This document shows, piece after piece, positions 12,056 to 19,770 of a DNA stretch of 45,857 nt; position 1 is the stretch's first letter; each line of letters begins with the position of its first letter. The stretch comes from Pseudomonadota bacterium. Lineage in GTDB: Bacteria; Desulfobacterota; Desulfobulbia; Desulfobulbales; CALZHT01. The translations under genes and the position numbers were made by a program. Under the pieces are notes generated by a model that saw nothing but the letters and a program-made list of their open reading frames with translations, was not told where the DNA came from and made no database searches. The DNA is taken from NCBI GenBank assembly GCA_018823135.1, contig JAHJJF010000126.1, positions 78,302 to 124,158 of the forward strand, given 5' to 3'.

Positions 12056-12829
12056 TTAGAAATCCAGGCCCACCTCGGCAAATGGACCGCTGAAGGTAAG
12101 ATCAGCCTTAATATCTTTTTCGTCAATTTCGATCTGTTCATGCCGATATCCTCCGGCAATATACAATGACTTCATGGGCATTTTAAAGGGGTGGTACTTT
12201 ACTCTGCCTATATAGTCAAAATAACTGTTGTCATCATAGGAAATCCCCCGCCCCTCCGCCTCGATGGCAAGCCATTTAAATGGCTGCACCCGCAAGCCGA
12301 TATATACCATGGGCATGGGAATGGTCTGGCTGGTGGATTCGTCATAACTCCCCTGAGTTACCTGAGCAGACAGATCGATGATCCGCACGTTGATGCCGAA
12401 TTCGGCGCTCAAACGGTCGCCGGTGAGGGTCTCAATAAAAGGGATGCCGTAGTACACCGCAACATCATAATGATCTAAAACCAGCTTCGAATAGAAATCA
12501 GTAGCTGCTGTGAATGCAGGTTGGTCACCAAATTTGAAATTTGCGCTTTTCTGGCCAGTGCCTTCAAATTCCATGGGTGTATACATCAGGTAGATATTGG
12601 GAAGAAAAAGCGGCAGATCGAATTTTGCCCGGACATAGCCGCGGAATTCATCGTCATATTTCGCATCATTCCCCAGATCAAGGTTATCGGCCTGGGTTAT
12701 GGCTTTGTACCCGACATAACCGTCAGGGCTCTGCCCCCAACCCCCCACGGCAACTTCCACGCCAAGGGCTGAAGAAATATCCGGGGCAAGAAAAAGCAAA
12801 AAAACAAATATACATGCTATGCGTTTCAT
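12056..12829 (-). CDS. Outer-membrane beta-barrel protein, TIGR04219-like
   Basis: A 257-residue exported protein: Sec signal peptide (MKRIACIFVFLLFLAPDISSA), then alternating hydrophobic/polar strands rich in Tyr, Gly and Phe, ending in the C-terminal Phe (EVGLDF) typical of outer-membrane barrels. The start GVEVAVGGWGQSPDGYVGYK and the overall pattern fit the TIGR04219 family of small outer-membrane proteins; its role is not established. The ATG at 12829 is preceded by GGAGG at a good distance, which decides against the upstream ATG at 12844. It is convergent with the cytochrome gene. Confidence 0.8.
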   Translation of the reverse strand: MKRIACIFVFLLFLAPDISSALGVEVAVGGWGQSPDGYVGYKAITQADNLDLGNDAKYDDEFRGYVRAKFDLPLFLPNIYLMYTPMEFEGTGQKSANFKFGDQPAFTAATDFYSKLVLDHYDVAVYYGIPFIETLTGDRLSAEFGINVRIIDLSAQVTQGSYDESTSQTIPMPMVYIGLRVQPFKWLAIEAEGRGISYDDNSYFDYIGRVKYHPFKMPMKSLYIAGGYRHEQIEIDEKDIKADLTFSGPFAEVGLDF

Positions 12830-12988
12830 CGGCAGAACCTCCATTTTAGAAATGTTAGCAATAAAACCAGATCGACCTGCGTGAAAAGTATAATTTACAT
12901 GATAACATATCCGCTACATGAATAGAACAATGAAAAGGGACATGGTCGTAAGCCCTTGGCAGTTTCACCTAAGATGAATGGCAGTGCG

Positions 12989-13828
12989 TTACTCTTTTTT
13001 CCCGGCGGGGTCATATCCGTCTTTCTTCCACTGAAGCACACCTTTTTTCAGAAAATAATAATCGGTGATCCCTTCCTTCTCAAAGTAATACTGCACCCAC
13101 TCAACCTGCTTCCCGACATTATCCAGGATAAGGATTCCACTGCGCGGCACGGCTATACTCTGTTTTTCAATCAGACTGATCAGCAGGTCTACGGTCAGTT
13201 GCTTCATTTTCGGAAACCGGATGGGTGATTCGCTTCTTTCATTGGGCTCTCTGAGGTCGATAATCGTGTACTTACCGCTGTTGGCTTTATCAATGAAATG
13301 CTCGGTAGCCAGCTGTTTCCGGTTGAAATCCTCTTTGCTGATCAACGAAGTTTTCAAGGTTTCGCGGGTCATAGGCCTGCCGAAAAAATCAGTTTTTCCC
13401 GGATGATTCTGAACCCAGTAAAAAATGCCGGCATCATAAATTCTGACATTGGCAAATCCCCACTCGGTGGCCCTGGCCCCGGCCTTATAACTGTTTGAAC
13501 ATGTGGTGTCGTTACTGTAGAAAACAAGAGGTGTACTGCTTTTTTTCTCACGAAGCGCCAGCAGGTCTTTTTCCCGCAGCCTGTCCACCGGAATATTTCC
13601 GGCGCCGTTCATGTGGATTACCTTGTATTCCCTGGCATCGCGTGAATCTACGATAATTGCGTCGTTATAGATTAAAGCAAGCTCTTCAGTCTCAATGGGC
13701 GAGAGATCTCTGTACTTCACCCGGAATGGGAACTCCAGTTCGGCAGCCGCTGTCAGGCTTGCACCTGAAAGCAATAATCCTGCAGCCAGAACCGGATAGA
13801 GCAATTTTCTCAACAACATCTTTGACAT
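12989..13828 (-). CDS. Periplasmic tandem-rhodanese protein A, active-site Cys replaced by Ser
   Basis: A 279-residue precursor with a signal peptide (about residues 1-27) and two rhodanese-like domains (about 35-140 and 165-275). In domain 1 the loop reads FYSNDTTCSNSYKAG, where the paralogue at 18928-19770 has FYCNGITCPKSYKAA; the usual persulfide-forming Cys is therefore Ser, although the second Cys of the loop is kept. In domain 2 the loop is LILDNVGKQVEW, with no Cys. A binding or sensing role is more likely than sulfurtransfer, but the remaining Cys might still react. AGGAGG lies 7 bases before the ATG. It is 55 bases downstream of the haem kinase on the same strand, so probably cotranscribed. 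Confidence 0.88.
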   Translation of the reverse strand: MSKMLLRKLLYPVLAAGLLLSGASLTAAAELEFPFRVKYRDLSPIETEELALIYNDAIIVDSRDAREYKVIHMNGAGNIPVDRLREKDLLALREKKSSTPLVFYSNDTTCSNSYKAGARATEWGFANVRIYDAGIFYWVQNHPGKTDFFGRPMTRETLKTSLISKEDFNRKQLATEHFIDKANSGKYTIIDLREPNERSESPIRFPKMKQLTVDLLISLIEKQSIAVPRSGILILDNVGKQVEWVQYYFEKEGITDYYFLKKGVLQWKKDGYDPAGKKE

Positions 13829-13883
13829 TACCAAACCTCCTGTAATTGTGTGATACTTGGAGTCAGAATTCTGTAAGACTTTT

Positions 13884-15704
13884 TCAGGAAAAATTCTTGA
13901 AATCAAGAAACGGCAGGCCATCGGTTACCTGTATATAGAATTTACATTGCTTGCAGTCGGTGATTTTCTGGGCAAAGGTGCCCTGCACTTTACCAGCACA
14001 CAAGGTTCCGGCAACAACCCAGCACACCCTGCCGTAATGCGGGTATGAGGGGCATTTGAGTTCACTGTTTTTATCTCGGCCGCATTGCATGAATTCCCAG
14101 CACGGGATTTTTCCATCATCCTCCCTGCTCTGATACGGGAAATAAAGACTTACTTCCATGCCGCCCTCTTTTCTGTTTCCTGCCCGGATAGAGCCGCCAT
14201 GCTCCTCCACAATTTTTTTGCTGATCGATAACCCAAGGCCGGTGCCCTGGCCGGCTTTTTTCGTTGTGTAAAAGGGCTCAAAAATCAAACCGAGAAACTC
14301 TGTATTCACCCCGGGTCCGCTATCTGAAACATGAACCGCAAGACAAACCACATGATGTATTTCTTCGGAAGTGACTTCAATCGAGAGAGTTCCTCCATCG
14401 GGCATGGCATCCATTGCATTTGAAATCAGGTTGATTACCGCCTGTCTGACCTGTTCGGCGTCGATCATCACGGTAAGATCAGTGTTGTTTTTATAATCAA
14501 CTGCAATATTCAATTCTTCAAGCATTTCACGAAAGAGATTTACCGCATCATTTACGACACTGTCGAGGCTATGCCGTTCAAATGTCATTTTCGGCTCCCA
14601 GGAAAAAACCAGAACGTCCCTGAGAATTCTTTCAAGCCTTTCGGCTTCGGAAACAACAATCTCGGCATAGGCTTCCTGTTTTTCCGAAGAGGCAAGCTTC
14701 AACAATCTCCTGCCGAAACCGCCGAGGGCCGAAAGAGGATTTCGAATCTGGTGCGCAATGTCCGCAGTCAAACGCCCGAGGGCCGCCATTTTCTCTGCCT
14801 GCACGAGCTTGTCCTGGGTTTTTCTGATTTCCGAGGTTTTCTTCTCAACTTCTTCTTCCAGTCGCTGCGTCCATTGTTCCATTTTCTTTCTTGCGACGCT
14901 TAATTCGTGGCTCATATCATTAAATGCCAGGGCAAGGCGGCCAATTTCATCTTTGGAAGACAATTCCACCCTGTGCGAAAGATCCCCTTCTGAAACACTT
15001 TTCATCCCCTTGGAGAGCGCACCCACCGGTTTAAGAATAATTTTCCAGAGGATGAGAGAAATCAAGCCGGCAATCAGCGCAATAAAAAGAAAAATGTAGA
15101 CAGAGGTCTTGATCGTCTGTTTTTTAATCCTGTCATCATAGGACTGGAGGGAAAAATCGGTCATCATCAAGCCGAGCACCTTATCCTGTTCATCGTGAAA
15201 ATGGCAGGAAGCAGTATAACACGCGGTATCGTTGGCGATGGGTTCGACATAAGTCAACAGTCGGGAACCATCCTCCTGATGAACGACCCACTGCTTGTGA
15301 CCGGAAACCGGCAACCGCACTTCATCCGACTCCGGATGGCATTGTCGGCAGGTGCTGCTTATTTTTTCCAATGTGAAACCGATTTCATTTTCCAACGAAG
15401 AATAGGCAATCTTCCCGTCAGGCCTGATTATTCGGACATTATCTATTATTTCGGAGCTTGAAATGACCTCTATGGCCTTCTGTAGCGCCTCAACGCTTCC
15501 TAAAAGCATATCGCGACTGAGGCTCATGCTTACCATTTCGGAAGATGATTTCACATATGCCTGCGCATCCTCCATAAGATGCTTTTCTTCTTCTTTGATA
15601 ATTGTGAACCAGAAGATAAAAGAGCCGACACCGATAATCAGGCTTACTGCTGTTACCAGTTTAGAAGTAAGAGATTTGTTGGCAGAAAAAAGAGTAAATG
15701 GCAT
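13884..15704 (-). CDS. Membrane sensor histidine kinase with two periplasmic haem-c motifs and a C-terminal two-CW domain
   Basis: A 606-residue kinase. TM1 about 15-36; periplasmic sensor about 37-198 with C119-x2-C-H123 and C162-x4-C-H168, two likely covalent haem c sites; TM2 about 200-222; HAMP about 222-275; coiled coil; HisKA with His318 (DIAHQIRNPLSALGG); HATPase with GLGLSISKKIVEEHGG. After the kinase core comes a Cys-rich C-terminal domain (about 525-600: CWEFMQCGRD, CPSY, CWVVAGTLC, CKQC), matching the 'two-CW' type of small domain of unknown role and possibly binding metal or a redox cofactor. Periplasmic haem plus cytosolic Cys domain suggests redox or gas sensing on both sides of the membrane. 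No response regulator lies next to it. Confidence 0.9.
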   Translation of the reverse strand: MPFTLFSANKSLTSKLVTAVSLIIGVGSFIFWFTIIKEEEKHLMEDAQAYVKSSSEMVSMSLSRDMLLGSVEALQKAIEVISSSEIIDNVRIIRPDGKIAYSSLENEIGFTLEKISSTCRQCHPESDEVRLPVSGHKQWVVHQEDGSRLLTYVEPIANDTACYTASCHFHDEQDKVLGLMMTDFSLQSYDDRIKKQTIKTSVYIFLFIALIAGLISLILWKIILKPVGALSKGMKSVSEGDLSHRVELSSKDEIGRLALAFNDMSHELSVARKKMEQWTQRLEEEVEKKTSEIRKTQDKLVQAEKMAALGRLTADIAHQIRNPLSALGGFGRRLLKLASSEKQEAYAEIVVSEAERLERILRDVLVFSWEPKMTFERHSLDSVVNDAVNLFREMLEELNIAVDYKNNTDLTVMIDAEQVRQAVINLISNAMDAMPDGGTLSIEVTSEEIHHVVCLAVHVSDSGPGVNTEFLGLIFEPFYTTKKAGQGTGLGLSISKKIVEEHGGSIRAGNRKEGGMEVSLYFPYQSREDDGKIPCWEFMQCGRDKNSELKCPSYPHYGRVCWVVAGTLCAGKVQGTFAQKITDCKQCKFYIQVTDGLPFLDFKNFS

Positions 15705-16021: not shown

Positions 16022-18895
16022 ATGAGTATTCGCAATAAATTAATACTCGGTTTTTTTCTCATTGCACTCCTTACCGTGGTCATAGGATTTATAGGTCACG
16101 GGATGACCCGACTCATCCAGGATGAGTTCAGCAATGTTGCAAACGAAACCATGCCGGTCATCGAGGCTTTGGAAAATCTTCGTTTTGCAGGCCTCAGAAT
16201 TGTTACATCGACAGTGGAATACGCTTTTTTCAACTCTGAAAAAGAAGCGCTGCTCAAATCAACCGGCTTCACTTCCACACGCCAATCTCGATTAGATAAC
16301 GACCTCTATTTCGATGCCATGAAACTGATCATCGAGGGCAAAGAACAGTATTACATTGCCTTTGATCATTATGCTCAACTGATCACAACCCTTCACCCGG
16401 ACAAAGCCAGCTACCTGAGGTTTATCGACAACACCGGTCAAAGGCTGCTTGAAATCAGCGATATCATCCTTGAAATGAAGGCAAGCGGCATAACAGGTGA
16501 AGAAATACTAAAAATAAAAGAAGAATTTGACAAGAGCGAACGGCTTTTCCTGAACTCGATAAACAGCGTATTAGAGCAAGAAAAGAAAATATTCCAACAT
16601 AGGAAAAAAACACTCCTCGATTCAATTTCCCAATCCTTGACAACTATCTTTATCGTAAGTTTCCTGTCGTTTATTTTCGCGATAATTGCCGGAATAATTA
16701 TTTCACGAAAAATTTCTCGGCCCATTACCGTGCTAAAAGACGCCGCTTCCAACATAGGGGAAGGAAATCTTAATGTCACTCTCCCGCCGCCCACCAAAGA
16801 CGAAATCGGTGAACTCACAACCGGCTTTGCCAGAATGGCGAAGAACCTCAGTCTATACCGCGATGAATTGATAAACTCGGCGTCTTATACTGAAAATATC
16901 ATAAAATCAATGATCAATGCTTTGCTGATCATCACCAGGGACGGACGAATAACAAGGGTGAATACAGCGTTATGCACCATGCTGGGATATCAGGAGGATG
17001 AGCTCTTGGGACACACCGTTGAAAAGATTCTCAGCCCCAATGAACGCTCGGGCTTTGCCAATACCCTGTGGAGCATTGTTTTTGAAAAAAATGAAGTAAG
17101 CAGCATCGAGACCTCATTCCTGACCAAGGACAACCACGAGATTCCGGTTCTTTTTTCAGCCTCGCCGGTGAATAACGAAAAAACCGACCGGATCGAAGAA
17201 GTTGTCTGCTCAGCTCTTGACATTACTGAAAGGAAAAAAGTTGTGGATGAACTGCAGAAGGCCAAAGAAGCGGCCGAAGCAGCCAACATTGCCAAAGGTC
17301 ATTTTCTTGCTAACATGAGCCATGAAATACGTACACCGATGAATGGCATCATGGGTATGACCGATCTCGTCCTGCAAACCAAACTTAACGATGAACAGCG
17401 GGATTTCCTGCTCATGGCCAGAGCATCTTCCGAATCGCTGCTCGGCATAATCAACGAAATTCTTGATTATTCAAAAATAGAAGCGGGCAAACTTGAAATT
17501 GAAGCAATTGATTTCAGCCTGTCACATCTCGTTGAAAGAACGACAAAGGACTTTGCCCTGCAAGCCCACACCAAAAAAATTGAACTTATCTGCCACATTC
17601 CACAGGACATTCATGACGGACTGATCGGCGACCCCGGCAGAATTCGCCAGGTCCTTACCAATCTCATCGGCAATGCCGTAAAATTTGTTGAAAAAGGCGA
17701 AGTGGTTGTGCGGGTTGAAAAAGAAAGCGAAAAAGAGGATTCGATCTATCTTTCTTTTTCGGTACACGACACCGGGATCGGCATTAAAACTGAAAGGATC
17801 GAGAGCCTTTTTGAAAGCTTCACCCAGGCCGATGCTTCCAGCACCAGAAAATACGGCGGCACCGGCCTCGGACTCACTATTTCCCGACAGCTCATTGAAC
17901 TCATGGGCGGCACCATCTGGGTTGAAAGTGACGTGGGCAAAGGAAGCACTTTTTATTTTTCACTGACCTTCAGAAAACAAAAAGGCTCGGCAACCCCTGT
18001 TTATATTAAACCTCCTAATATCAGCGGCATGCGCGTCCTGGTAATTGATGACAATACCACAAACCGTCTCATCCTGACGGAAATGCTCACCAACTGGGGG
18101 ATGAGTCCTGATGCGGTTTCCTCTGGGAAAGAAGGGTTCGCGACCCTCAAAAAAGAGGCCACGGGCAATAATCCATATCGTCTGTTGATTCTGGATTTTC
18201 AAATGCCGGACATGGACGGTTTTGCAGTGACCCAGCTCATAAAAAACGAACCGTGTCTTGCCGGTCTGACGCTTGTCATCCTCACTTCCATGGGTGTCAA
18301 GGGAGATGGAGCCCGTTGCCGGGAGTTGGGTGTTGACGCATATCTGCCCAAGCCTTTTGGCCAGTCCGAGCTCTTTGATATGATCATGAAGAGCCTCAGC
18401 GACCACTCCGCCTTAAACAGAGATCTTATAACACGGCATATGCTGAGAGAAGAGCGCGCAATAATCAGAGGCAAACTCAGCATGGGCAGCAGAAAACAGC
18501 ACCCCCTTGAAGGGATTCAATTAAGTGTCCTGGTAGCCGAAGACAACCCCATAAACCAGAAACTTGCCCAGGCGCTGCTCAAGAAGAATGGTTGGGATGT
18601 ATACAGTGCGGTAAACGGCAGGCTTGCCGTGGAAGCCACGGAGAAAAACAAATTTGATCTGATTCTGATGGATGTTCAAATGCCTGAAATGGACGGCCTT
18701 GAGGCAACCCGTCTTATCCGTGAAAAGGAGAAAGGCTCGGGTGGTCACCTGCCGATTATTGCATTAACCGCAAATGCCATGAAAGGTGATCGTGAAAAAT
18801 GTCTGGCGGCAGGCATGGATGACTATCTTGCCAAACCCATCACTTCAAAAAAACTCAATGAAATTATTGAACGGGTGCTGATTAACATCAATTAG
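16022..18895 (+). CDS. Hybrid sensor histidine kinase, BarA-type, with two receiver domains
   Basis: A 957-residue inner-membrane protein. TM1 about 7-25; periplasmic four-helix-type sensor about 30-205; TM2 about 209-229; HAMP about 230-285; PAS about 290-405 (ending DITERKK); HisKA with His434 (NMSHEIRTPMNG); HATPase with GTGLGLTISRQLIELMGG; receiver 1 with acidic pair 676-677 and phospho-Asp725 (LDFQMPDMDG); receiver 2 with phospho-Asp884 (MDVQMPEMDG). No Hpt domain is present, so the phosphate must go to a separate Hpt protein or the receivers may act as intramolecular brakes. The sensor carries no haem motif, unlike the divergent kinase. The Shine-Dalgarno is weak (GAAG). It converges on rhodanese gene B. 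Confidence 0.94.
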   Translation: MSIRNKLILGFFLIALLTVVIGFIGHGMTRLIQDEFSNVANETMPVIEALENLRFAGLRIVTSTVEYAFFNSEKEALLKSTGFTSTRQSRLDNDLYFDAMKLIIEGKEQYYIAFDHYAQLITTLHPDKASYLRFIDNTGQRLLEISDIILEMKASGITGEEILKIKEEFDKSERLFLNSINSVLEQEKKIFQHRKKTLLDSISQSLTTIFIVSFLSFIFAIIAGIIISRKISRPITVLKDAASNIGEGNLNVTLPPPTKDEIGELTTGFARMAKNLSLYRDELINSASYTENIIKSMINALLIITRDGRITRVNTALCTMLGYQEDELLGHTVEKILSPNERSGFANTLWSIVFEKNEVSSIETSFLTKDNHEIPVLFSASPVNNEKTDRIEEVVCSALDITERKKVVDELQKAKEAAEAANIAKGHFLANMSHEIRTPMNGIMGMTDLVLQTKLNDEQRDFLLMARASSESLLGIINEILDYSKIEAGKLEIEAIDFSLSHLVERTTKDFALQAHTKKIELICHIPQDIHDGLIGDPGRIRQVLTNLIGNAVKFVEKGEVVVRVEKESEKEDSIYLSFSVHDTGIGIKTERIESLFESFTQADASSTRKYGGTGLGLTISRQLIELMGGTIWVESDVGKGSTFYFSLTFRKQKGSATPVYIKPPNISGMRVLVIDDNTTNRLILTEMLTNWGMSPDAVSSGKEGFATLKKEATGNNPYRLLILDFQMPDMDGFAVTQLIKNEPCLAGLTLVILTSMGVKGDGARCRELGVDAYLPKPFGQSELFDMIMKSLSDHSALNRDLITRHMLREERAIIRGKLSMGSRKQHPLEGIQLSVLVAEDNPINQKLAQALLKKNGWDVYSAVNGRLAVEATEKNKFDLILMDVQMPEMDGLEATRLIREKEKGSGGHLPIIALTANAMKGDREKCLAAGMDDYLAKPITSKKLNEIIERVLININ

Positions 18896-18927: not shown

Positions 18928-19770
18928 TCAAGAAAGTTTATGCCCAGATGAATCATAACCTTCCTCAATCCACTTTCGCATACCGCCTTTGAGGAAATAA
19001 TATTCCTTCACTCCCTCCTTCTCAAAAAAATACTGCAGCCATTTAACCTGTCTTCCGACATTATCAATGACCAGCACGTGTTCCCGTGGTATGGCGCTGC
19101 TCTTTTTTTCAAGAAGCTGCACAAGGCTGTCAAAAGACAGGACCAGAACCCTCGGCAGACGGAAAGGCTTATCAAACCTCTCATTGGTGTCACGGATATC
19201 AATAATTCGGTACTGGCCGCTGTGTACTTTTTCGATGAATTTTTCCGGAGTCAGCAGGACCTTTTCAAAGCGTTCCGGGTTAAGAACCATATCTTCCATC
19301 TCAGTTGCTGACAGGATTTTGCCGAAAAAATCTGTTTTCTCAGGATAATCCTTTGACCAGGAAAAAATACCGCTCTCATAAATTTTTACATTTTCAAATC
19401 CCCAGTCAACCGCTTTATCAGCAGCCTTATAGCTCTTGGGGCAGGTGATACCGTTGCAGTAAAAAACTATCGGCACAGGACTTGTTTTGGGGCGCAAAGC
19501 AAGGAGTTGCTCCTGGTTCATTCGGTCGGCAGGGATATTAATGGCTCCGGTCATCCTGATAACCGAAAATTCCATTTGATTCCTGGAATCAATCTTAATT
19601 GCCGAATCAAATATTTCAGCAAGTGATTTGCTATCAATACCGGTGAGAAACGGGTAGCTGCTGCGGAGCGGAAATTGCTGTTCGTCCTCTGCCATGGAAG
19701 CAAATGGGATGGCAATGATGGCCAACAACATCAGACTGGACAAACAACTCTTTTTAAGTGATCGGATCAT
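18928..19770 (-). CDS. Periplasmic tandem-rhodanese protein B, active-site Cys kept
   Basis: A 280-residue precursor with a signal peptide (about residues 1-27, ending ASMA) and two rhodanese-like domains. Domain 1 carries FYCNGITCPKSYKAA, a CxxGxx-type active loop with the persulfide Cys in place and a second Cys three residues after the Gly. Domain 2 has IDNVGRQVKW without Cys, as in paralogue A. The two proteins are clearly paralogous throughout (shared KTDFFG, RQV/KQV-W, YYFLK-G). A sulfane-sulfur carrier or thiosulfate/polysulfide-handling role is plausible but unproven. It converges with the hybrid kinase gene (32-base gap) and has its own promoter with AT-rich palindromes. Confidence 0.88.
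   Translation of the reverse strand: MIRSLKKSCLSSLMLLAIIAIPFASMAEDEQQFPLRSSYPFLTGIDSKSLAEIFDSAIKIDSRNQMEFSVIRMTGAINIPADRMNQEQLLALRPKTSPVPIVFYCNGITCPKSYKAADKAVDWGFENVKIYESGIFSWSKDYPEKTDFFGKILSATEMEDMVLNPERFEKVLLTPEKFIEKVHSGQYRIIDIRDTNERFDKPFRLPRVLVLSFDSLVQLLEKKSSAIPREHVLVIDNVGRQVKWLQYFFEKEGVKEYYFLKGGMRKWIEEGYDSSGHKLS

Follow-up and report, generated by a model that had tools for sequence, protein, structure and literature searches.

A histidine kinase gene on the minus strand

The window, that is, the whole stretch of 45,857 nucleotides analysed here, carries at positions 13884-15704 a gene (P0001) encoding a histidine kinase of 606 aa. Its coding strand, on which the sequence-only reading of this DNA was silent, is the minus strand, and an ORF check revealed many stops on the plus strand across the same interval. 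From N- to C-terminus, a first transmembrane (TM) helix is followed by a periplasmic sensor, a second TM helix, a HAMP domain, HisKA, HATPase and a seven-Cys domain. Both elements that define a HisKA histidine kinase, the HisKA H-box and a HATPase_c domain, are present in this single protein:

13884..15704, minus strand: whole histidine kinase gene P0001, 606 aa (ORF; orthologues 50-56% identical over the full length)
15597..15662, minus strand: TM helix 1, about residues 15-36 (hydropathy)
15108..15596, minus strand: periplasmic Cache-type sensor, residues 37-199, about 163 residues, two haem c predicted (profile and fold matches)
15039..15107, minus strand: TM helix 2, about residues 200-222 (hydropathy)
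14901..15047, minus strand: HAMP, residues 220-268, intact (PF00672, 57 bits)
14598..14780, minus strand: HisKA, residues 309-369, H-box DIAHQIRNPL with H318 (PF00512, 52.6 bits)
14130..14462, minus strand: HATPase_c, residues 415-525 (PF02518, 89.2 bits)
13923..14105, minus strand: C-terminal two-CW domain, residues 534-594, seven conserved Cys (NF045718, 64.8 bits)

Six full-length orthologues (L009-L012, L018, which is the same as L013, and L088; 50-56% identity) were found among relatives and public genomes. The Cx4CH motif of the sensor and all seven C-terminal Cys are retained in 6/6 of them, and the CxxCH motif in all except L018. The sequence-only reading had staked its proposal beforehand on conservation of these Cys in orthologues, and as far as sequence goes the proposal withstands this test. 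Single-sequence AlphaFold prediction of the whole kinase gave a pLDDT of 38 and was of no use.

Neither an adjacent response regulator nor a common target operon was found at any orthologue locus examined, and no sigma-54 response regulator, multihaem cytochrome or cytochrome b gene is present in the window or at these loci. The window kinase is an orphan membrane histidine kinase. Divergently from it, a hybrid kinase of HAMP-PAS-HisKA-HATPase-REC-REC order is encoded on the plus strand (16022-18895); another long, hybrid-like protein is encoded divergently in L098. Downstream lies a gene for an outer-membrane beta-barrel-like protein (12056-12844, minus strand), kept in L098 and L099. Paralogous tandem-rhodanese proteins, probably exported, are encoded on either side of the kinase pair (12989-13921 and 18928-19770, both minus strand). 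We rejected the rhodanese genes as general functional partners, since they flank the window copy only and are absent at orthologue loci.

The periplasmic sensor and its two haem motifs

The periplasmic segment contains exactly four Cys, all within CRQCH (119-123) and CYTASCH (162-168). Both motifs arise by chance in about 4 per 100,000 shuffles of this segment (p about 4e-5). This confirmed the CxxCH (C119) and Cx4CH (C162) previously noticed between the membrane helices. The genome of the window also carries cytochrome c assembly genes (PF01578, 4 matches). Motifs and candidate ligands are located as follows:

15507..15509, minus strand: Met66, predicted distal ligand of the core haem (invariant; aligned to Met60)
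15336..15350, minus strand: haem motif 1, CRQCH (C119-R-Q-C122-H123), predicted added haem (sequence; absent from mono-haem relatives and from L018)
15201..15221, minus strand: haem motif 2, CYTASCH (C162-YTAS-C167-H168), predicted core haem (aligned to the single CxxCH of GSU0582/GSU0935)
15195..15197, minus strand: His170, candidate distal ligand of haem 1 (co-variation with motif 1)

In an alignment of 64 unique sensor domains, C162, H168 and Met66 are each found in 64/64, C167, H123 and H170 each in 63/64, and C119 and C122 in 62/64; Met66 is also present in 73/73 of a larger sensor set. The column of motif 2 is constant and its spacing varies: mostly Cx4CH, with Cx2CH in L118, L120, L204 and L152 and Cx3CH in L199. 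Because the column is kept while the spacing changes, motif 2 has the appearance of a genuine haem-attachment site. The motif of L199 (L199:4355-6664), CSENCH, is an uncommon haem spacing in a column that elsewhere carries Cx4CH.

The homology to Geobacter-type haem-c sensors proposed from sequence is borne out by profile and fold matches. A PDB search with the sensor profile retrieved GSU0582 (3b47, E 5e-5) and GSU0935 (3b42, E 1e-3). Foldseek, run with a sensor model built from five sequences (pLDDT 71.7, moderate, and low at both haem loops), retrieved 3b42 (4e-6), 3b47 (2.5e-4), WalK (8e-7) and also the CitA Cache domain. The extracytoplasmic segment, with a TM helix on either side, is thus of Cache fold. 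In the profile alignment, the single CxxCH of GSU0582/GSU0935 falls on the Cx4CH of the window kinase and their Met60 on Met66. It follows from this alignment that Cx4CH would be the core haem site and CxxCH the added one. Reading two motif spacings as haem sites was therefore right in kind; the roles differ, and the idea that Cx4CH marks a second, exotic type of haem was rejected, as this motif aligns as the core site.

As for family membership, the haem motif aligns with the position of the conserved insertion of sCache_heme, where CXXCH is found in about 99% of DUF3365, with Cx4CH spacing in the window kinase and Cx2CH in relatives. The sensor domain gave no match to PF11845 (DUF3365/Tll0287), so that membership of Pfam DUF3365 was rejected, and it scored 24.7 bits against PF21563, below the cut-off of 27, which several mono-haem relatives exceed. 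By sequence comparison, the window sensor is a divergent relative of sCache_heme and no strict Pfam member. Its profile was found in 166/395 genomes of the phylum.

What could complete the coordination of the added haem? Among 73 sensors, motif 1 and His170 are both present in 62 and both absent in 9, with 2 exceptions, counts that are affected by relatedness among the sensors and are not independent. Since it co-varies with motif 1, His170 is the foremost candidate to coordinate the added haem on the distal side, a role we consider probable from the alignment. In one orthologue (L018, 51% identical), both Cys of motif 1 are gone while His170 and the rest of the sensor are kept. As predicted from its sequence, this sensor is a natural one-haem variant, and haem 1 is therefore not indispensable. 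The same loss, together with the position of CxxCH 119-123 in a low-confidence loop of the sensor model, could mean that this motif is haem-free and that the core site alone is occupied. We regard this as very unlikely: CxxCH is kept in 62/64 very diverse sensors, together with the co-varying His170.

What the sensor detects outside the inner membrane is most likely redox state or nitric oxide. A review describes Met60 of GSU0935 and GSU0582 as a ligand of the haem in its reduced state that gives way to CO and NO, and states that either protein binds NO whether oxidised or reduced (PMC8396549). For haem-c Cache sensors fused to signalling domains, tight NO binding and the lack of a stable oxy complex have been reported (PMC12889525). 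These properties speak for a sensor that binds NO or another small gas instead of reporting redox potential, which we retain as a distinct but minority possibility. NO binding, however, does not need a second haem, and relatives with the same dihaem sensor adjoin genes for multihaem cytochrome c, cytochrome b and a sigma-54 response regulator, a setting that favours control of respiratory electron flow.

In these wider-family loci, the dihaem kinase gene also has a stand-alone dihaem sensor beside it. The sigma-54 regulator and cytochrome neighbours suggest that the wider-family dihaem kinases control respiratory cytochromes. Presumably, the loci are linked to the Geobacter CbcBA/BccR region, which they appear to resemble. 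In contrast to the several dihaem kinases outside the orthologue clade that have such neighbours, the window kinase is an orphan. Kinase-less dihaem sensors of about 280 aa (L191-L198, e.g. L197:10820-11659) are encoded close to a dihaem kinase gene, several of them at loci that also carry the sigma-54 regulator, multihaem cytochrome c and cytochrome b genes.

The two-CW domain and its association with haem sensors

The seven Cys previously noticed behind the ATPase domain belong to a two-CW domain. The C-terminal segment matches NCBIfam NF045718 (two_CW_domain) with E 7e-18 and 64.8 bits, above the curated cut-off of 35, and possesses both CW motifs and all seven Cys (535, 541, 551, 561, 569, 584 and 587, all past the ATPase domain). 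In an alignment of 54 two-CW domains, each of the seven Cys is found in 52-54/54. Conservation of the sensor and of the two-CW Cys exceeds chance. No described function for the domain was found in a literature search, and a PDB sequence search with it as query gave no match. It is probably a binder of metal or of an Fe-S cluster.

Fourteen two-CW copies are present in the window's genome, and the domain occurs in 74/198 sampled genomes of the phylum. Its contexts include stand-alone proteins of about 100 aa, chemoreceptors, Ser/Thr kinases, PAS kinases and hybrid kinases. Since it is also found in haem-free kinases, chemoreceptors and soluble proteins, two-CW does not require a haem sensor and need not report the same signal as the haems. 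In one chemoreceptor of the window's genome (L149:2473-4728), CZB zinc-binding domains in tandem are combined with a two-CW at the C-terminus; L240 is also a chemoreceptor with two-CW. In proteins of about 555 aa (L166:124-1782; also L167, L169 and L174), two-CW is N-terminal, and in L166 it is followed by cyclic-nucleotide-binding and Ser/Thr protein kinase domains.

Haem-c sensors are joined to two-CW in at least three arrangements, and mono-haem sensors of the same fold are combined with it in orders other than that of the window kinase. The order sensor, HAMP, PAS, kinase, two-CW, receivers is found in a second kinase of the window's genome (L152, 1116 aa) and in its relative L227; L228 is similar. 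In six further kinases (L215, L218, L221, L237, L241 and L243), two-CW lies directly behind TM helix 2. HAMP is split in these, as in kinases with sCache_3_2 sensors, into helix 1 (about 2-29 of the profile), two-CW, and helix 2 (31-50). Kinases with two-CW inside HAMP, carrying haem or sCache_3_2 sensors, are L214-L219, L221, L225, L230-L233, L236, L237, L241 and L243. Upon in silico deletion of two-CW, a single joined HAMP match was obtained in eight, for example rising from 12.9 to 22.3 bits in L225. We found no published description of two-CW inserted within HAMP. Periplasmic haem together with a cytosolic Cys domain, claimed to be unusual, is less so than thought, since it recurs in several architectures.

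Across 12 genomes, a haem sensor is present on 16/25 long two-CW proteins vs 20/about 730 other kinases, an odds ratio of about 63 that is indicative only, as the genomes were partly picked for having both and include several close relatives. Counted within the window's genome only, two-CW is present on both of the haem-sensor kinases (p about 0.001-0.004). Tentatively, we suggest that two-CW may act as a cytosolic input responding to redox state, metal or NO, and that Desulfobacterota have repeatedly fitted it into the signal path of periplasmic haem-c kinases, C-terminally, behind the ATPase domain or within the HAMP connector; such kinases would weigh the redox state of both sides of the inner membrane.

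A kinase-core tree bears on how the fusion arose. The window kinase and its six orthologues form one clade (support 100/96), whose sister clade (94/98) comprises L014-L017 and L185-L187. These kinases share the C-terminal two-CW with the window kinase; they are orphan kinases of six-helix type, with a multi-helix membrane N-terminus where the window kinase has a periplasmic haem sensor and HAMP, and no partner response regulator was found beside them. All dihaem kinases retrieved outside the orthologue clade are without two-CW, and they are placed elsewhere in the tree. From this placement, the dihaem sensor with its HAMP appears to have been joined once to a chassis that already carried two-CW. 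On the simplest reading, the architecture looks like a sensor swap by a single fusion event.

If two-CW arrived with the kinase core, sensing might be periplasmic only: the haems would read redox state or NO and two-CW, taken over from the chassis, would be a zinc domain that serves structure and senses nothing. The haem-free sister clade with its own C-terminal two-CW and the rigid conservation of the seven Cys, as for a structural zinc site, agree with this explanation, which we consider possible but rather doubtful. The position of two-CW varies among signal proteins, even to inside the HAMP connector, and the domain also stands alone in proteins of about 100 aa; such spread is more in keeping with a regulatory module than with a domain that caps the structure of a single kinase family.

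Proposed working and comparison with known sensors

Taken as a whole, these observations lead us to favour, with some confidence, a two-haem periplasmic switch of Geobacter type that would drive the kinase via HAMP, with two-CW as a second cytosolic input or brake. By analogy with GSU0935 and GSU0582, the distal Met66 of the core haem (Cx4CH, proximal His168) may move on or off the iron according to redox state or when NO or CO binds. With His123 as proximal and probably His170 as distal ligand, the added haem at CxxCH could serve as a bis-His electron relay or as a tuner of the core haem. The ligand switch would move TM helix 2 and HAMP and thereby alter autophosphorylation of HisKA at H318. 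The seven-Cys two-CW, with a probable metal or Fe-S centre, may provide a second, cytosolic input or act as a structural brake beside the catalytic domain. Of this picture, sequence analysis shows the order of the domains, their homology and conservation, the co-variation, the sensor swap and its recurrence; haem occupancy, ligand switching, the metal of two-CW and the integration of both inputs are inferred. The two-sided idea of the sequence-only reading is thus plausible in outline and is aided by recurrence; that the kinase compares the redox state of periplasm and cytosol stays a hypothesis.

For anaerobes with many respiratory acceptors, gene expression has to be adjusted to the redox conditions both in the cell and around it. 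If our proposal is true, a covalent-haem sensor outside and a conserved Cys domain inside one kinase would make a directly testable integrator. There are several ways in which related bacteria have combined haem parts outside with cysteine parts inside, and the survey gives the widespread, uncharacterised two-CW domain a strong signalling context, including an unusual site within the HAMP relay.

How does the window kinase compare with known systems? As in other NF045718 proteins, its seven-Cys domain is above the curated cut-off, whereas many of those proteins are stand-alone and small or form part of other signal proteins. GSU0582 and GSU0935 share with it a Cache domain between two TM helices feeding HAMP, the position of the core haem site and the distal Met. 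They differ in having one haem, bound at CxxCH, and a chemoreceptor output, whereas the window kinase has Cx4CH at the core site and an extra CxxCH, signals through a kinase and carries two-CW at its C-terminus. Sensors with two motifs are already on record: GSU0591, GSU0599, Adeh_2011 and Adeh_3383 (PMC3831638, PMC8396549), known as motif counts only. GSU0599 and GSU0591 likewise carry two CX2-4CH motifs in one sensor domain, and for GSU0599 the annotation is that of a two-component protein (PMC8396549, PMC3831638); the window kinase, too, is a two-component kinase whose sensor has two haem motifs. Given GSU0599 and GSU0591, its periplasmic half is of an already known kind.
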